Source: Oscillospiraceae bacterium (GTDB lineage: Bacteria > Bacillota > Clostridia > Saccharofermentanales > Saccharofermentanaceae). From it: a stretch of 11,531 bases of DNA. The notes beneath the pieces are model-generated. The model worked only from the letters and a program-made list of their open reading frames with translations. It had not been told where the DNA came from and searched no databases. Within the stretch, counting starts at the first letter, position 1, and the number at the start of each line of letters is the position of its first letter. Position numbers and translations under genes: made by a program. Shown here piece by piece: positions 1-10,164 of this stretch. The DNA is taken from the NCBI GenBank assembly GCA_902782985.1, contig CACZPC010000198.1, forward strand, positions 1 through 11,531, given 5' to 3'.

Positions 1-1361
1 CCGAGAGCATATCTGTAGGAGTGAAGTACCATCTTGGGATAACCCGTAGTACCTGAGGAGAAGAACATTACCATGGGATCGTCTCCGCATGCAGCATCTT
101 CGGGTCTCTCGAATACATCGGAGAATGCCTCGAACTCCTTATTAAAGTCTCTCCAGCCCTCTCGGCAGCCGTTGACCATAACGAAGGTATCCATTGTCTC
201 ACAGCTCTGAGCGGCCTTATATGCCTCATCTGCCGTATCGCCGTCGGCGGTACATATGATACCCTTACAGCCTGCAGCCTTGAAGCGGTAATCGAAGTCG
301 TGTTCACGAAGAAGATTGGTAGCGGGGATAGCTATTGCTCCGATCTTATGAAGAGCAAGGATGGAGAACCAGAACTGATAATGACGCTTAAGAACGAGCA
401 TTACCTTGTCGCCCTTCTTGATACCCAGGGATTTAAAGTAGTTCGCAGTCTTGTTGGAATACTTCTTCATCTCTTCGAAAGTATATCTGTGGTCCGTTAC
501 ACAGTCCTTATCGACCCACATCATGGCAGTCTTGTCGGGATTCTTTGCAGCGATGGCGTCAACGCAGTCGAATGCGAAGTTGAACTTCTTGACTTCATCT
601 TCAACGAATTCGATCTTGGAAAGGATACCCTGATCGTTAAGCTCTGTCTTAACATACTTTGCGTAAACGGGATCCTTAAGATCTGCAAGATCCACGTTGG
701 TTACGTTATCTGCTCTGTATTCGGTCTTGAATGTTGACTTATATGTCTCTCCCTTGGACCAGGCCTCGGGATTTAAGATGATGGCATAGAATTCGCAGTC
801 CTCTCCGCCGATGGCGAACTCACCGTGAGGCGTGGAGGAATCGAAGAAGATGGAATCACCGGGATTTAAGATCTCGACAGCATCTCCGATCATTACCTTA
901 AGAGTACCTCTTACGACGATATTCATCTCCTGTCCTACGTGTGTAACGAGCTCGTAGGGAGGATTGAGGGCTTCCTCGGAATAGGGGATTATTACTCTGA
1001 AGGGCTCGGCAAGCTTGCTCTTGAATCTGGAGCCGAGTCTTAAATACTTATATCCTTCTCTTCTGGCGATAGGACGTCCCTCGCCCTTTCTTGTGACTGC
1101 ATATGTGGTAAGAGCGGGCGCGGAACCTTCCATAAGTTCCGAGATCTCTACTCCGGCTACATTGGCAAGTTTGTATACGAAAGTGAAGTTGAAGTCCTTC
1201 TCACCGTTCTCGTACTTCTTATATTCTTCGGTGGTGATGCCGACCTTCTCGGCCATCTCCTCCTCAGTGAGGTTCATGTCGAGACGTATACCCTTAACAC
1301 GGTCTGCGACCTCGCGGATCTTGTCATCCATCTGTCCGTTGATCTTAAGATTCTCTGCCAT
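1..1361 (-). CDS. XRE-HTH / cupin / medium-chain acyl-CoA synthetase fusion (3' part missing)
   Basis: The reading frame is open from ATG at 1361 to the left edge (453 codons seen) and is preceded by a good ribosome site, AAAGGAG. Residues about 13-78 look like an XRE helix-turn-helix (the stretch LTEEEMAEKVGITTEEYKKY fits the two recognition helices). Residues about 105-200 look like a cupin barrel with H141, E145 and H179 as candidate metal or ligand residues and a conserved NPGDSIFF turn. From about 255 an AMP-forming acyl-CoA synthetase begins; the start FNFAFDCVDAIAAKNPD resembles the medium-chain (ACSM) branch, and SSGTTGYPK at 435-443 is the ATP-binding loop. The family activates carboxylic acids to acyl-adenylate and then acyl-CoA in the cytoplasm. 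XRE-cupin proteins are usually separate regulators, so an in-frame fusion suggests a synthetase that senses its substrate or binds DNA; that is inference. A T-box leader precedes it. The substrate cannot be read from what is visible, and the C-terminal domain lies outside the window. Confidence 0.88.
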   Translation of the reverse strand, partial: MAENLKINGQMDDKIREVADRVKGIRLDMNLTEEEMAEKVGITTEEYKKYENGEKDFNFTFVYKLANVAGVEISELMEGSAPALTTYAVTRKGEGRPIARREGYKYLRLGSRFKSKLAEPFRVIIPYSEEALNPPYELVTHVGQEMNIVVRGTLKVMIGDAVEILNPGDSIFFDSSTPHGEFAIGGEDCEFYAIILNPEAWSKGETYKSTFKTEYRADNVTNVDLADLKDPVYAKYVKTELNDQGILSKIEFVEDEVKKFNFAFDCVDAIAAKNPDKTAMMWVDKDCVTDHRYTFEEMKKYSNKTANYFKSLGIKKGDKVMLVLKRHYQFWFSILALHKIGAIAIPATNLLREHDFDYRFKAAGCKGIICTADGDTADEAYKAAQSCETMDTFVMVNGCREGWRDFNKEFEAFSDVFERPEDAACGDDPMVMFFSSGTTGYPKMVLHSYRYAL

Positions 1362-1422
1362 AGTTTCTTTCTCCTTTTGTTAATTCTCTTTACCCATAAG
1401 AAGTGCCCGAGTTTACTGCAAT

Positions 1423-1463
1423 AAAAAACGCCCCAAGCTTCCCTGTAGGAAGAACTTGAGACG
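1423..1463 (-). terminator. T-box-controlled intrinsic terminator
   Basis: On the minus strand CGTCTCAAG (1463-1455) pairs with CTTGGGGCG (1437-1429), with extra pairs towards the loop, and six U follow (1428-1423). It lies just after the TGGTACCGCG antiterminator bulge and before the start codon at 1361, which is the standard T-box arrangement. When tRNA is charged, transcription should stop here. Confidence 0.88.
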
Positions 1464-1715
1464 GAATATCCGCGGTACCACTCAACTTGCACTGACCCTG
1501 TAACAGATCAATACCTCTTATGGGTTCTGACAAACCCCTTGCCTTAACGCGGCTGCCTTCGGGTACAGTCTACAAGGTCTGATGACCGTTCGGTGTACCG
1601 GCTCGGAAGCGATAGTCGTATTGATAATTAAGGTTATCGGCTTGCAGCGACCGCCGACTCTCTGTGAACCCGAAGTATCTGACCTCTTCGTCATAGCCTT
1701 TACTATATCGAAACA
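1429..1715 (-). ncRNA. T-box riboswitch leader (tRNA-sensing)
   Basis: Read on the minus strand, the leader has the T-box parts in the right order. GACGAAGAGG opens Stem I (about 1692-1683), followed by AGATA in the place of the usual AGUA motif. CAGAGAG and then GGTCGCTGCAAGCC form the distal tRNA-elbow-binding part. The T-box bulge TGGTACCGCG lies at 1480-1471, then the terminator. GAGGTC (1686-1681) can pair with GACCTT (1579-1574), and TTCGG with CCGAA, leaving an internal loop that holds the specifier. AUC at 1583-1581 followed by A is my best reading (Ile); GUC at 1586-1584, also followed by A, is the alternative (Val). The base after UGG in the bulge is U, which calls for a tRNA with A at position 73, as expected for Ile, Val, Leu or Phe and not for Ser, Thr or Gly. 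The leader sits directly upstream of the acyl-CoA synthetase fusion on the same strand, with no other gene between. Low charging of the matching tRNA should allow read-through. Confidence 0.93.
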
Positions 1716-1721
1716 ATGTAG

Positions 1722-1750
1722 AGAATAATCTCAACTCGGGCAATTGTCAA
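1722..1750 (-). promoter_or_regulatory. Promoter of the T-box / acyl-CoA synthetase transcript
   Basis: TTGACA (1750-1745) is a perfect -35 box. It is followed by a 17-bp spacer and TATTCT (1727-1722) as the -10. This is a sigma-70/SigA-type promoter starting transcription near 1715, immediately upstream of Stem I of the T-box. Confidence 0.7.
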
Positions 1751-3055: not shown

Positions 3056-3667
3056 ATGCATTTGATACTGGCCAGTGCCTCGCCGAGAAGGCGGGAGCTG
3101 ATGCGCCTGATAACCGAAGAATTTGAGGTTATTACGGCTGATATAGATGAGAGGGAACTCGAGAGCAGTCTCGGGGATATCCCTGCCAAAGATGTATCCG
3201 AGAGGATCGCCAGAGCTAAGGCCGAGGCGGTATGGTCGACATTAAGTCCGTCCGATACGGAGGATGCAGTTGTCGTTGCCGCAGATACATCCGTTATCTC
3301 GGGTGACCGCATTATGGGAAAGCCGAAGGATAGGGCCGAAGCCGGACAGATGCTTACCGAACTGTCGGGGAAGATCCACAGCGTCGTTACAGGCGTATGG
3401 ATCATCAAAGATAATAAGGGTAAGGGCTTCAGCGAAGAGACTTTTGTTGAATTCTGTCCTCTTGACCGATTTCAGCAGGAGACTATAGAATCTTATATCT
3501 CAACGTCTGATCCTTATGACAAGGCAGGAGGCTACGGCATTCAAAACGGCGGAGCTCTGCTGGTGAAGCGGGTCAACGGAGATTATTTTAATGTGGTGGG
3601 TTTGCCGGTAATGGCACTTTCAAGAGAATTAGCGGCCCTGGAGGATGATAACAGATGCGAAGCTTGA
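3056..3667 (+). CDS. maf: Maf-family nucleoside triphosphate pyrophosphatase
   Basis: This 203-residue protein matches the family length and motifs: SASPRR at residues 7-12 (phosphate binding), AADT with the catalytic Asp77, GKPKD at 88-92, and DKAGGYGIQ at 155-163 followed by NVVGLP near the end. Maf proteins hydrolyse non-canonical or surplus nucleoside triphosphates (dTTP, UTP and modified bases) to monophosphate and pyrophosphate in the cytoplasm and are linked to septum control. The start at ATG 3056 is chosen because AAGGAG (3043-3048) lies 7 nt upstream and the protein then begins with the typical MHLILASASPRR; a start at 3023 would add 11 residues without a ribosome site. The gene overlaps the next one by 13 nt, so the two are probably co-translated. 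Confidence 0.95.
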   Translation: MHLILASASPRRRELMRLITEEFEVITADIDERELESSLGDIPAKDVSERIARAKAEAVWSTLSPSDTEDAVVVAADTSVISGDRIMGKPKDRAEAGQMLTELSGKIHSVVTGVWIIKDNKGKGFSEETFVEFCPLDRFQQETIESYISTSDPYDKAGGYGIQNGGALLVKRVNGDYFNVVGLPVMALSRELAALEDDNRCEA

Positions 3668-5793
3668 TAAAAGCTGATCATAAAGGCAGATATATCGACA
3701 TCATTTTTGTAGTCGGCATAATATTCGCCATACTTACGGCCATTGAGATCCGTTTCGGCGGTTATTTCTTCGTTCATGACGACAATCAGCAGTCTTATCT
3801 TTGTTTATATAAGCATACATTCGACGGATTAAAGCAGGGCACGCTCTCGCTTTATAATTTCCACCAGTTCATGGGCATCCCTTTCGTGGATGACGGTCAG
3901 TCCGGTGTATTCAATCCCGTTGTATACATCTCGGTTGGATTAAGTTACCTCTTTACCGGTCATGTCTTTGCGGCGATCGACATAATGACATATATCTGCC
4001 TCGGATTTGCCGGCATTACCATGTATATGCTTCTGTGTAAGCTCGGTGTCGGAAGAGCGGTATCGGTACTCGGAGGCGTGATCTGGGCGCTTAACAGCTT
4101 TACGATCAATATGGGAAAGGCGTGGATGATCACGACTCTTTTCACGGCTATATTCCCGCTGATGCTTTTCGGAAGCATCATCCTGATGTACAGAAGGGAC
4201 CTTAAGGGATATATCATTGCCGCACTCCCCCGTGTGTTCATGTACTATACGGGTCATCCCCAGTTCTTCGTCTATGCCGTATTATTTGAAGGCATTACGA
4301 TGCTCATTTACATTATCCTTATGAAGGGTAAGATCTCCGTTAAGTTCTTTGCGGCAGTCCGATACGGTCTGAGCTATATTCCCGTATGCATCCTGTGTCT
4401 TCCGCTGCTCTATATCCAGTACAGAGCTACCAGATACTCCGGTGCCCGTTCGGATCAGGTACCGTGGGGAGCATTCTTCCCGGGCAAGATGGAAGCTCTT
4501 GAGGTCCTTAAGGGACTTGTTGTACCGTGGAAGAAGAATGTCTATTACGGCGTGTGGACTAATTTCTGGAATATCAATGCCAACCTCGGTCATGTGGGAT
4601 ATATCGTTCTTTATGCATTCCTGCTGTTGCCTGTGATAGTAGTCGTAGCACTGGCGCATAAGAAGGGAAGGAAGCTCGTAAGGATCATTCCTTTTGTACC
4701 CGGAGCCGTTATCGCATTCTTCTGGGGTACGAGCGAGTCGTTCCTGAAGTTTATCTATCAGATCCCCATGCTCAACAGATTCAGGTTTCCGTTTAAGCTC
4801 ATCCTGATATTCGATTTTTTCATCATAGTTATCGGATGTATGCTGGTTCATATCGTAGCTGAATTCGTATTTAAGAATATGCCGAAGATCAGGAACGGAG
4901 CAGTTGCATTCCTTGTCTTTGTACAGGCCTGCAATTATCTGGTACTTTATCTTTTCTTCCCTGTTCCGCAGTACGGTATCAGAGGAGAGACGGATCTTCC
5001 CCATGAACCTCAGTATCTTAACGAAATGCGCGAGGGACGAATAGTAACGACCGGATATACGATGTATTTCGTCAACGGGTCTACAGTCCCGAAGGATTAT
5101 TATATCGATTCTCTCGGCTTCAATTATGCTACTCTCTACGGTGTGGATAACGTGCTGGGTTATTCGGTATTCCTTCCCGTAGAATTTTATGGGAATCTTA
5201 CGAGTCTCGGTATCGCATACTGCGAGAATGCATCTTTTGTCGGAATGCCACAGGGACTTGTCGATCTTATGAATCAGTATGGTGCCGAGTGGTATATCGT
5301 ACCCAAGGCTCACGGACAGCCTGAGATGTTCCCTCGATATGCTACTGCTCTGGCGGTGCATGGAATGAAGCCTGTTTATCAGACGGATACATGCTATATC
5401 TATAAGAATGAGGACCCGGTTCCTCTTGTTCACCCCGAGAGCGCATATAATGCCAATGAGACGGTCTCTTTTGTAGAGAATATCAATGATATCACTGCTC
5501 ATACAACGTCTGATTTCAAGGCTGATGATGTAGCATTTATCTACTCATATCTCTACAGACTTCATGCATATGTTGACGGCAGGGAAGTGGAGCTTCGTCA
5601 GGATGCCGACAGAACGCACCTTCTCATCGCGGTTCCGGACGGTGCCCATGAAGTCGTTCTCAGATATGAGGATGAGAGGCTTTGGCAGTGCTTCCTTATA
5701 ACAACTGCATCGATGACGATATTCTGTATCGGAATGTCTTTCTTTATCTCGAAGACGAGATTTATGACTGCACTTTATGAAGGAACCCTATAA
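3655..5793 (+). CDS. YfhO-like polytopic membrane protein, putative GT-C glycosyltransferase
   Basis: The 712-residue protein has a first membrane helix at about 13-33, then an extracytoplasmic loop with HDDNQQ (about 41-46) where GT-C enzymes carry an acidic catalytic motif. A series of about 10 further helices runs to about residue 430 and includes GHPQFFVYAVL and RFRFPFKLI, both reminiscent of the YfhO family. A soluble domain occupies about 440-675 and a final helix about 684-702. YfhO-type proteins are linked in Bacillus and relatives to glycosylation of teichoic acid or other wall polymers using lipid-linked sugars; whether this protein does so is inference. GGAGGA lies 8 nt before the ATG, inside the end of maf, which implies translational coupling. 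Its 3' end overlaps the converging GGDEF-EAL gene by 32 bp. Confidence 0.75.
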   Translation: MRSLIKADHKGRYIDIIFVVGIIFAILTAIEIRFGGYFFVHDDNQQSYLCLYKHTFDGLKQGTLSLYNFHQFMGIPFVDDGQSGVFNPVVYISVGLSYLFTGHVFAAIDIMTYICLGFAGITMYMLLCKLGVGRAVSVLGGVIWALNSFTINMGKAWMITTLFTAIFPLMLFGSIILMYRRDLKGYIIAALPRVFMYYTGHPQFFVYAVLFEGITMLIYIILMKGKISVKFFAAVRYGLSYIPVCILCLPLLYIQYRATRYSGARSDQVPWGAFFPGKMEALEVLKGLVVPWKKNVYYGVWTNFWNINANLGHVGYIVLYAFLLLPVIVVVALAHKKGRKLVRIIPFVPGAVIAFFWGTSESFLKFIYQIPMLNRFRFPFKLILIFDFFIIVIGCMLVHIVAEFVFKNMPKIRNGAVAFLVFVQACNYLVLYLFFPVPQYGIRGETDLPHEPQYLNEMREGRIVTTGYTMYFVNGSTVPKDYYIDSLGFNYATLYGVDNVLGYSVFLPVEFYGNLTSLGIAYCENASFVGMPQGLVDLMNQYGAEWYIVPKAHGQPEMFPRYATALAVHGMKPVYQTDTCYIYKNEDPVPLVHPESAYNANETVSFVENINDITAHTTSDFKADDVAFIYSYLYRLHAYVDGREVELRQDADRTHLLIAVPDGAHEVVLRYEDERLWQCFLITTASMTIFCIGMSFFISKTRFMTALYEGTL

Positions 5794-9364: not shown

Positions 9365-10000
9365 TCAGTGGGTCTTGTTGTATATCTTTCCGATAAGATT
9401 TGAGATGGGCTTATATACCCAGAAGGTAATGAAAGATACCACGATACCCTTAAAGAGGTTAAAGGGAAGAAATCCCCAGAGTATAAGTGAGAGCTTGGAT
9501 GTGATAAGAGGATTTACAGCGTTGCTCATTCCGATTATCGCTTCGGTGGAAAAATTCAATACCGAACCGTAGAGAGGAAGGGTAACGAAGAAGTTCAGAG
9601 GGCAGGCAAGTAAGCAGAGAGCTCCTGTTGCAACTGCCATGGCGATGACTGCTCCCTTTCTGGTCCTGATCTTCTTATAGATGCTTCCTGCAGTAAACAC
9701 ATAGATGCTTCCCGTAAGGAAATTGGATGCTTCGCCGATGCCCATCGTTCCCGTAGCGGGAAGGTGGATAAGATTCTTTAAGAGCTCGATGATCACACCG
9801 TAGATCGGCCCCAGTGCAAAGGAACCCACAAGTACCGGCACCTCGGAGAAGTCAAACTTCAAAAAAGGCGGCATAAAGGGAAGCGGGATCTCAAGGTACA
9901 TAAGTACTACTGCGAGTGCCGTCATTACGGCAGTGCAGGTGATCTTGGTGATCACGGCTCTTCTGGCAGATACAGTGTTCTTGGTGGAAATTTCGGACAT
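9365..10000 (-). CDS. ribU: Riboflavin ECF transporter substrate-binding subunit RibU
   Basis: The 211-residue membrane protein has the RibU family layout: a cytoplasmic N-terminus, an ECF-typical first helix with ALAVVLMYLEIPLPF, then FLKFDFSEVPVLVG and GPIYGVIIELLKNLIH, and about six helices in all. The S-component binds riboflavin (or FMN) outside the cell membrane and works with the shared EcfA/EcfA'/EcfT energy module, which is not in this window. An FMN riboswitch lies immediately upstream on the same strand, which fixes the substrate with good confidence. The start is ATG 10000, with GGAAGGAG ending 10 nt upstream at the riboswitch 3' end. Confidence 0.95.
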   Translation of the reverse strand: MSEISTKNTVSARRAVITKITCTAVMTALAVVLMYLEIPLPFMPPFLKFDFSEVPVLVGSFALGPIYGVIIELLKNLIHLPATGTMGIGEASNFLTGSIYVFTAGSIYKKIRTRKGAVIAMAVATGALCLLACPLNFFVTLPLYGSVLNFSTEAIIGMSNAVNPLITSKLSLILWGFLPFNLFKGIVVSFITFWVYKPISNLIGKIYNKTH

Positions 10001-10012
10001 AAAAAAACAACT

Positions 10013-10156
10013 CCTTCCATCCGGACTTTACCGTCGGCCACGGAATCTCACCGTGTCAGTCCCGCCTTAAAAGATTTGACGGGAGTAGCGGGCTTACCAT
10101 CTGAGCTGTTGCTTCAGGTTCACCGCCGGTCGAGGAATTACGCCTCGCCTTGGATT
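10013..10156 (-). ncRNA. FMN riboswitch (RFN element)
   Basis: On the minus strand the conserved RFN blocks appear in order: GAGGCGTAATTCCTCGACCGG with GGCGGTGAACC, the variable arm, AGCCCGC near 10093, GACACGGTGAGATTCCGTGGCCGACGG (from about 10058) and AGTCCGGATGGAAG (about 10027-10014). The 3' end contains the ribosome site GGAAGGAG of ribU, so FMN binding could block translation of ribU. The run of seven T after it lies between ribosome site and start codon and is not preceded by an obvious terminator stem, so I favour translational control over termination. Confidence 0.95.
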
Positions 10157-10164
10157 ACGCGGTC

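Follow-up and report, generated by a model that had tools for sequence, protein, structure and literature searches.

The window analyzed here is one entire contig (CACZPC010000198.1; 11,531 nucleotides) from a metagenome-assembled genome (MAG; GCA_902782985.1) of an Oscillospiraceae bacterium, a MAG that is 73% complete. At one end of this window, a T-box leader RNA directly precedes a gene in which a helix-turn-helix (HTH) domain, a cupin domain and an AMP-forming acyl-CoA synthetase are fused in a single reading frame (Table 1). Each of the three domains scores above its Pfam gathering threshold, the combination by which an XRE-cupin regulator and an AMP-forming synthetase are recognized. 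The full-length orthologue from the closely related isolate KHP2 comprises 786 amino acids and is 95% identical. An earlier interpretation made from the letters alone, referred to here as the sequence-only reading, had proposed a complete T-box leader with its own promoter in front of an acyl-CoA synthetase; the full-length match to RF00230, the promoter, the terminator and the PF00501 match bear this out, and what it had missed is the HTH_3 and Cupin_2 part to which the enzyme is fused.

The T-box score lies below the Rfam gathering score of 93, and a scan in gathering mode consequently reported only an FMN riboswitch. Other leaders of KHP2 also stay below 93 (ilvA, 89.3; aspS, 86.5; thrS, 78.6; aspS and thrS were named by eye from the N-terminus), and the gathering score is a curation cut-off rather than a structural feature. 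The segment CTCAA is common to the antiterminator and the terminator, so that by fold and sequence the two structures are mutually exclusive, as is expected of a T-box. When folded alone, neither the antiterminator (z -0.36) nor Stem I (z 0.07) is more stable than its shuffles; the structural case is hence carried by the covariance model and by comparison, and by structure the leader RNA is a T-box. Promoter-like sites number three in the stretch scanned, versus a shuffle mean of 1.4, and a simple terminator scanner called no terminator.

Table 1. Coordinates of the T-box leader, the fused synthetase gene and their parts within the window
Feature	Positions	Strand	Basis
Sigma-70-type promoter of the leader, TTGACA-17-TATTCT	1722..1750	-	10/12; TTGACA or TTGACT 5' of Stem I by eye in 26 printed Ile-type relatives
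T-box leader (RF00230), Stem I to antiterminator	1454..1703	-	Full-length match, model 1-219, 80.2 bits, E 9.1e-18
Specifier AUC (Ile), followed by G1610 and lower-helix CUUC 1609..1606	1611..1613	-	Covariance alignment; homologous leaders
Antiterminator: TTGAG 1485..1481, bulge TGGTACCGCG 1480..1471, CTCAA 1460..1456	1456..1485	-	Sequence and folding; UGGU fits tRNAs with A73
Intrinsic terminator, hairpin at about 1463..1429 plus a run of six U; overlaps the 3' arm of the antiterminator	1423..1463	-	-18.2 kcal/mol, z -4.05, 0/200 shuffles as stable
Ribosome-binding site AGGAG	1371..1375	-	Sequence
HTH-cupin-acyl-CoA synthetase gene, ATG at 1361, 453 codons, truncated by the contig end	3..1361	-	Open reading frame and Pfam
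Helix-turn-helix HTH_3, residues 25-76	1134..1289	-	PF01381, 40.1 bits vs gathering 23; 434 repressor-like by sequence
Cupin_2, residues 140-194	780..944	-	PF07883, 41.5 bits vs gathering 27.2
AMP-binding (adenylate-forming) N-terminal half, residues 269-452	6..557	-	PF00501, 110.4 bits vs gathering 29.9

The specifier of this leader is AUC, a codon for isoleucine. Its register was set with 46 T-box leaders, 43 of them in five of six isolate genomes and three in the contig's own MAG. Codon and gene were compared for twelve leaders that do not belong to the acyl-CoA synthetase (genes named by eye from their N-termini, ilvA and ilvB by NCBIfam), and the codon fits the gene in all twelve: AUC for ilvA, GUC for ilvB, UAC for tyrS, CUC for leuA (two), UGG for trpE (two) and trpB, GUA for valS, AAC for asnS, UUC for pheS and GCU for alaS. 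As judged by eye, a single base separates the codon from the lower helix in these twelve leaders, precisely as in the leaders of the synthetase. Among these leaders, those of leuA, tyrS and ilvA have UGGU as their antiterminator bulge and those of trpE and asnS have UGGC, in agreement with the base before CCA in the KHP2 tRNAs that were read (A in both tRNA-Val, in tRNA-Leu and in tRNA-Tyr; G in tRNA-Trp and tRNA-Asn; tRNA-Ile lay outside this set).

The best 80 of at least 597 matching stretches in named genomes were taken as homologous loci; they belong to Ruminococcus (R. flavefaciens FD-1 among them), Lachnospiraceae, Saccharofermentans and related records from gut and rumen. A T-box is found at 75 of these best 80 loci, at 73 of them through TGGTACCGC no more than 260 bases from the start and at two more (L039 and L043) by Rfam. 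Specifiers were readable by script in 71 of the 73, since L068 and L074 lack that part, and every one of the 73 readable leaders offers AUC (71/71 by script; L039 and L043 by eye). The 71 leaders share a mean identity of 63%, and the bases flanking the codon vary (T in 69 and C in 2 before it; C in 45, G in 15 and A in 11 after it). As far as homology to known enzymes allows this function to be predicted, the AUC of all 73 leaders would fit isoleucine synthesis downstream. The sequence-only reading had wavered between AUC (Ile) and GUC (Val), and had suggested fixing the codon with RF00230 and aligning homologous leaders. Both routes lead to the branched-chain codon AUC, which is conserved; the isoleucine half of that reading is thereby upheld, and its valine half falls for this leader and applies only to a paralogue clade described below. 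GUC as the specifier of this leader is ruled out by the invariant AUC with its variable preceding base and by the register of the twelve leaders, and the tyrosine codon UAU by the T/C variation before the invariant AUC and the same register. None of the leaders read on a synthetase gene had a leucine specifier, no search having been aimed at one.

The closest solved sequence to the enzyme is 3ETC, the Macs protein of M. acetivorans, with 670 bits over residues 258-783 of the KHP2 orthologue. This enzyme (MacsMa) prefers 2-methylbutyrate, according to PMC10455477, and the sequence-only reading had pointed to an M. acetivorans enzyme with this preference. The best NCBIfam match of the full-length orthologue is MbcS (NF047394), at 445.8 bits versus an equivalog cut-off of 850; the enzyme may thus work like MbcS, yet it is not to be filed as MbcS. 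Judged from these two homologues, the closest solved one and the best, sub-cut-off family match, the enzyme very probably activates 2-methylbutyrate. The 120 best of 7998 scored homologous proteins all possess cupin and synthetase domains, 13 of them without a precomputed HTH domain, and where a name is given, which is seldom, it reads "AMP-binding protein" or "acetyl-CoA synthetase".

Enzyme and specifier change together in a set of paralogues. The KHP2 protein was searched against 188 genomes of the contig's order, of which 138 matched (unfused relatives included), and 60 regions were retrieved. All 13 listed paralogues at 57-59% identity display GUA before G-CUUC, in the arrangement of valS leaders, and two genomes of another family harbor tandem pairs in which one copy is preceded by AUC and the other by GUC. 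There are accordingly 15 paralogues with valine specifiers (GUA 13/13; GUC 2/2). A FastTree phylogeny built from 135 synthetase domains places all 15 Val-leader proteins together, with support values of 0.98 for the GUA group, 1.0 for the GUC pair and 0.50 for their union; because the latter value is so low, one specifier switch and two fit equally. Residue 480 (KHP2 numbering; TGW-G-K) is Gly in 83/83 Ile-leader proteins (78 distinct, some being the same genomes reached by two routes) and Ala in 15/15 Val-leader proteins. It is also Gly in 12 fused proteins whose specifier was not read by script, and among 25 unfused relatives on the tree it is Ala in 17 and Met in 8. In the alignment with 3ETC, a Gly of that protein falls opposite residue 480 and a Trp opposite Trp462. 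Residue 480 would be the counterpart of the acyl-pocket Val310 of Salmonella Acs, and would hence lie near the acyl pocket; Ala at this place would narrow the pocket, which would fit isobutyrate versus 2-methylbutyrate.

A second line of evidence comes from the gene content of 85 genomes of the genus, 46 of them of high quality, in which ilvD was scored by PF00920 and VorB by NF005507. A second synthetase is present in 57 of the 85 genomes, as the Val-T-box fusion in 13 and as an unfused type in 45 (one at only 58% identity), with both in one genome; residue 480 is Ala in all 45 unfused second synthetases. The ilvD gene is present in 23 of the 85, together with a second synthetase in a single genome (G108), and six genomes, five of them less than 90% complete, have neither. 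Second synthetase and ilvD thus nearly exclude each other (Fisher p 6e-14 for the 85 genomes; both in 1 of the 46 high-quality genomes, p 1e-8). For the Val-T-box fusion alone, ilvD occurs in 0/13 versus 23/72 genomes (p 0.016), and in 0/8 versus 12/38 of those of high quality (p 0.09). VorB, a marker of the ferredoxin-dependent 2-oxoacid oxidoreductase of the VOR type, is encoded in 71 of the 85 genomes (two below the family cut-off) and in 43 of the 46 high-quality ones, and the VOR genes of KHP2 immediately precede ilvA with its Ile T-box. Of six isolate genomes, KHP2 and FD-1 gave an ilvD match, and none was detected in YAD3003, YRB3002, R. flavefaciens Y1 or SAb67.

Where a genome of the genus lacks ilvD, it mostly carries an unfused synthetase with Ala at residue 480 (L270-L279, L342-L376) in place of the Val-T-box fusion. 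An open reading frame of more than 150 codons lies upstream of most unfused synthetases, and a separate HTH-cupin gene would precede them, as matches over residues 4-784 cross stop codons. No T-box was detected in the 38 unfused loci of the order that were given to Rfam. Weak matches to a manganese riboswitch (25.5-32.3 bits vs gathering 45) occur near unfused loci, in L342 at 613-753, in L343 at 2589-2716, in L355 at 2498-2622 and in L357 at 609-754; they may be chance matches or belong to the leader of a neighboring gene.

These data lend themselves to a regulatory model for which we have good confidence: a transcriptional T-box responding to tRNA-Ile would control the salvage of 2-methylbutyrate to isoleucine, and the valine-coded copy that of isobutyrate to valine. 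Uncharged tRNA-Ile (anticodon GAU, A73) would pair through its anticodon with AUC and through its ACCA end with the UGGU bulge; the tRNA-bound leader would hold the antiterminator, and transcription would read through into the gene. The enzyme part of the HTH-cupin-acyl-CoA synthetase would produce 2-methylbutyryl-CoA from 2-methylbutyrate, an oxidoreductase of the VOR type would carboxylate it to 3-methyl-2-oxopentanoate with the aid of ferredoxin, and a transaminase would convert the latter to isoleucine. The valine-coded paralogue would lead from isobutyrate to valine in place of the ilvD route, a task that an unfused relative would serve in most ilvD-less genomes of the genus. T-boxes turn genes on under starvation, and the flux is for this reason more readily understood as synthesis than as catabolism. 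The salvage route advanced by the sequence-only reading is thereby largely supported, through the conservation of AUC, the homology to 3ETC and the VOR-type oxidoreductase of relatives, with 2-methylbutyrate as the predicted substrate.

Several observations weigh against this model or narrow it. The fused gene is without a detectable T-box at 4 of the 79 testable loci (L055, L093, L095, L096) and likewise at L286; L051 lacks upstream DNA. In 25 of the 45 unfused loci of the genus, those given to Rfam, no T-box was found, and as the second synthetase is mostly of this unfused type, most valine salvage would not be under T-box control. The Fisher tests ignore relatedness, and the Gly/Ala change at residue 480 may be one single event. 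A further 48 columns separate the Ile and Val clades (overlap <0.12), with 273 (Lys/Arg) and 580 (Thr/Ser) doing so as cleanly, and residue 480 is consequently a candidate and no proof; the second half of the gene lies beyond the contig, and this residue could be read only in relatives. The sequence-only reading had suggested looking for VOR/KOR/IOR or ilvE genes with the same T-box class; no T-box match was seen just upstream of VOR in the six isolate genomes (one by coordinates only); in KHP2, it is the adjoining ilvA that carries the Ile T-box. Neither VorB nor ilvD was detected in the contig's own MAG, and for this MAG the pathway is therefore a prediction; two KOR-type clusters of this MAG look IOR-type by eye. 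Finally, KHP2 and other ilvD-bearing genomes retain both routes. By their ilvD content, some carriers seem to rely on the acids or on externally supplied amino acids, and others keep both routes.

Among the alternatives, it is unlikely, in our view, that the synthetase supplies branched-chain (anteiso, iso) fatty acid synthesis, as does MbcS of S. aureus, with the charging of tRNA-Ile serving as a proxy for the branched-chain supply. MbcS is the best NCBIfam match at 445.8 bits and, as described in PMC10026030, activates both 2-methylbutyrate and isobutyrate for FabH; the score nevertheless stays below the MbcS cut-off of 850, and lipid supply would not be expected to give a specifier that tracks the paralogue and its residue, nor a second synthetase where ilvD is missing. 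Very unlikely is an enzyme of other or broad specificity (propionate, valerate, isovalerate, aromatic acids) for which the Ile T-box would be a general report of starvation. The substrate is predicted from homology only, and MacsMa adenylates C3-C8 acids while the thioester is completed with 2-methylbutyrate (PMC10455477); a general signal, on the other hand, would not keep one codon and switch it with the enzyme, as do AUC in 73/73 leaders and the valine codons in 15/15 members of the Ala-type clade. Both of these explanations account less well for the data because codon and enzyme change jointly and because ilvD and the second synthetase nearly exclude each other. VOR-type enzymes and AMP-forming synthetases can work in either overall direction in anaerobes, yet a catabolic role, with the reactions running toward the breakdown of isoleucine and valine through oxoacid oxidation and acid release, is hardly credible given that a T-box activates its gene when the amino acid is short, that a same-codon Ile T-box controls the biosynthetic ilvA in KHP2, and that genomes with the second synthetase are those in which ilvD tends to be absent.

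The fusion itself invites a further-reaching proposal, which we regard as tentative and somewhat doubtful. The protein could be a trigger enzyme under two controls, in which the T-box would read the charging of tRNA-Ile or tRNA-Val and the HTH-cupin part would bind DNA and respond to the acid, to the acyl-CoA or to a product, so that the synthetase itself would be a transcription factor; Ile-coded copies with a pocket Gly and Val-coded ones with a pocket Ala would then amount to a tRNA-addressed replacement of the ilvBCD pathway. No conserved operator for the HTH domain was seen by eye 5' of the T-box in the printed relatives.

Some observations concern T-boxes beyond the synthetase leaders or other parts of the window. 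At L093, L095 and L096, a promoter-like stretch lies near the start codon of the fused synthetase, where one clade appears to have lost its T-box. Genes that resemble aspS by eye follow T-boxes with the Asn codon AAC at L155 (KHP2), L162 (YAD3003) and L165 (YRB3002); an AAC leader on aspS would suit a non-discriminating AspRS, one that serves tRNA-Asn as well. The T-box matches L172, L178 and L180 (R. flavefaciens Y1) and L183 and L189 (FD-1) have as their first downstream open reading frame of at least 90 codons one for a small protein of unrecognised function. On the contig itself, the FMN riboswitch (80.4 bits; 10005-10160, minus strand), an ordinary one, precedes a gene for an ECF-type substrate-binding membrane protein (9365-10000, minus strand), probably the riboflavin transporter RibU. 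A 712-residue protein encoded at 3655-5793 on the plus strand is membrane-like by eye and has no Pfam match.

If the proposed salvage holds, the regulatory codon would name the amino acid served by a candidate first enzyme, and paired Ile and Val copies would predict the acid of each. It would also provide concrete genes for testing whether gut or rumen bacteria, Ruminococcus flavefaciens for instance, depend on branched acids, and extend T-box control to the salvage of carboxylic acids.

With the T-box leaders of amino-acid biosynthesis genes (RF00230), the leader studied here shares Stem I, the specifier, the UGGU antiterminator, the terminator and a codon that fits the downstream pathway; it differs in that its gene encodes an acyl-CoA synthetase. 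Such enzymes go unmentioned in the main text, supplements apart, of two T-box surveys as far as these are accessible ('CoA' 0 in PMC2494555; 'acyl-CoA' and 'CoA ligase' 0 in PMC3766115). In the open full-text literature we found no report of acyl-CoA synthetase salvage controlled by a T-box; other classic T-box surveys lie outside this search, so that absence from print does not follow. M. acetivorans Macs (3ETC) is the closest solved sequence and shares the Gly aligned with residue 480 and the Trp aligned with Trp462, but it is archaeal and, as the match begins at residue 258, without the HTH-cupin part. We know of no T-box for it. S. aureus MbcS (NF047394) is the best NCBIfam match and also acts on 2-methylbutyrate and isobutyrate; it differs in that the match stays far below the cut-off and in that it serves fatty acid synthesis as a single enzyme for both acids (PMC10026030). 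The cupin and AMP-binding gene pairs of Bacteroides and Parabacteroides comprise the same kinds of domains, the four best records being 48-51% identical to the query across most of its length, but there the genes are separate, and unfused relatives also occur in the contig's own order. To our knowledge, the genes of the branched-acid route of rumen anaerobes have not been assigned in these bacteria. The route itself is the very pathway that we propose here, with the difference that there the physiology is known: the conversion of 2-methylbutyrate to isoleucine and of isobutyrate to valine has been established since about 1970 (Robinson and Allison 1969; Allison and Peel 1971, as cited in PMC7356843).

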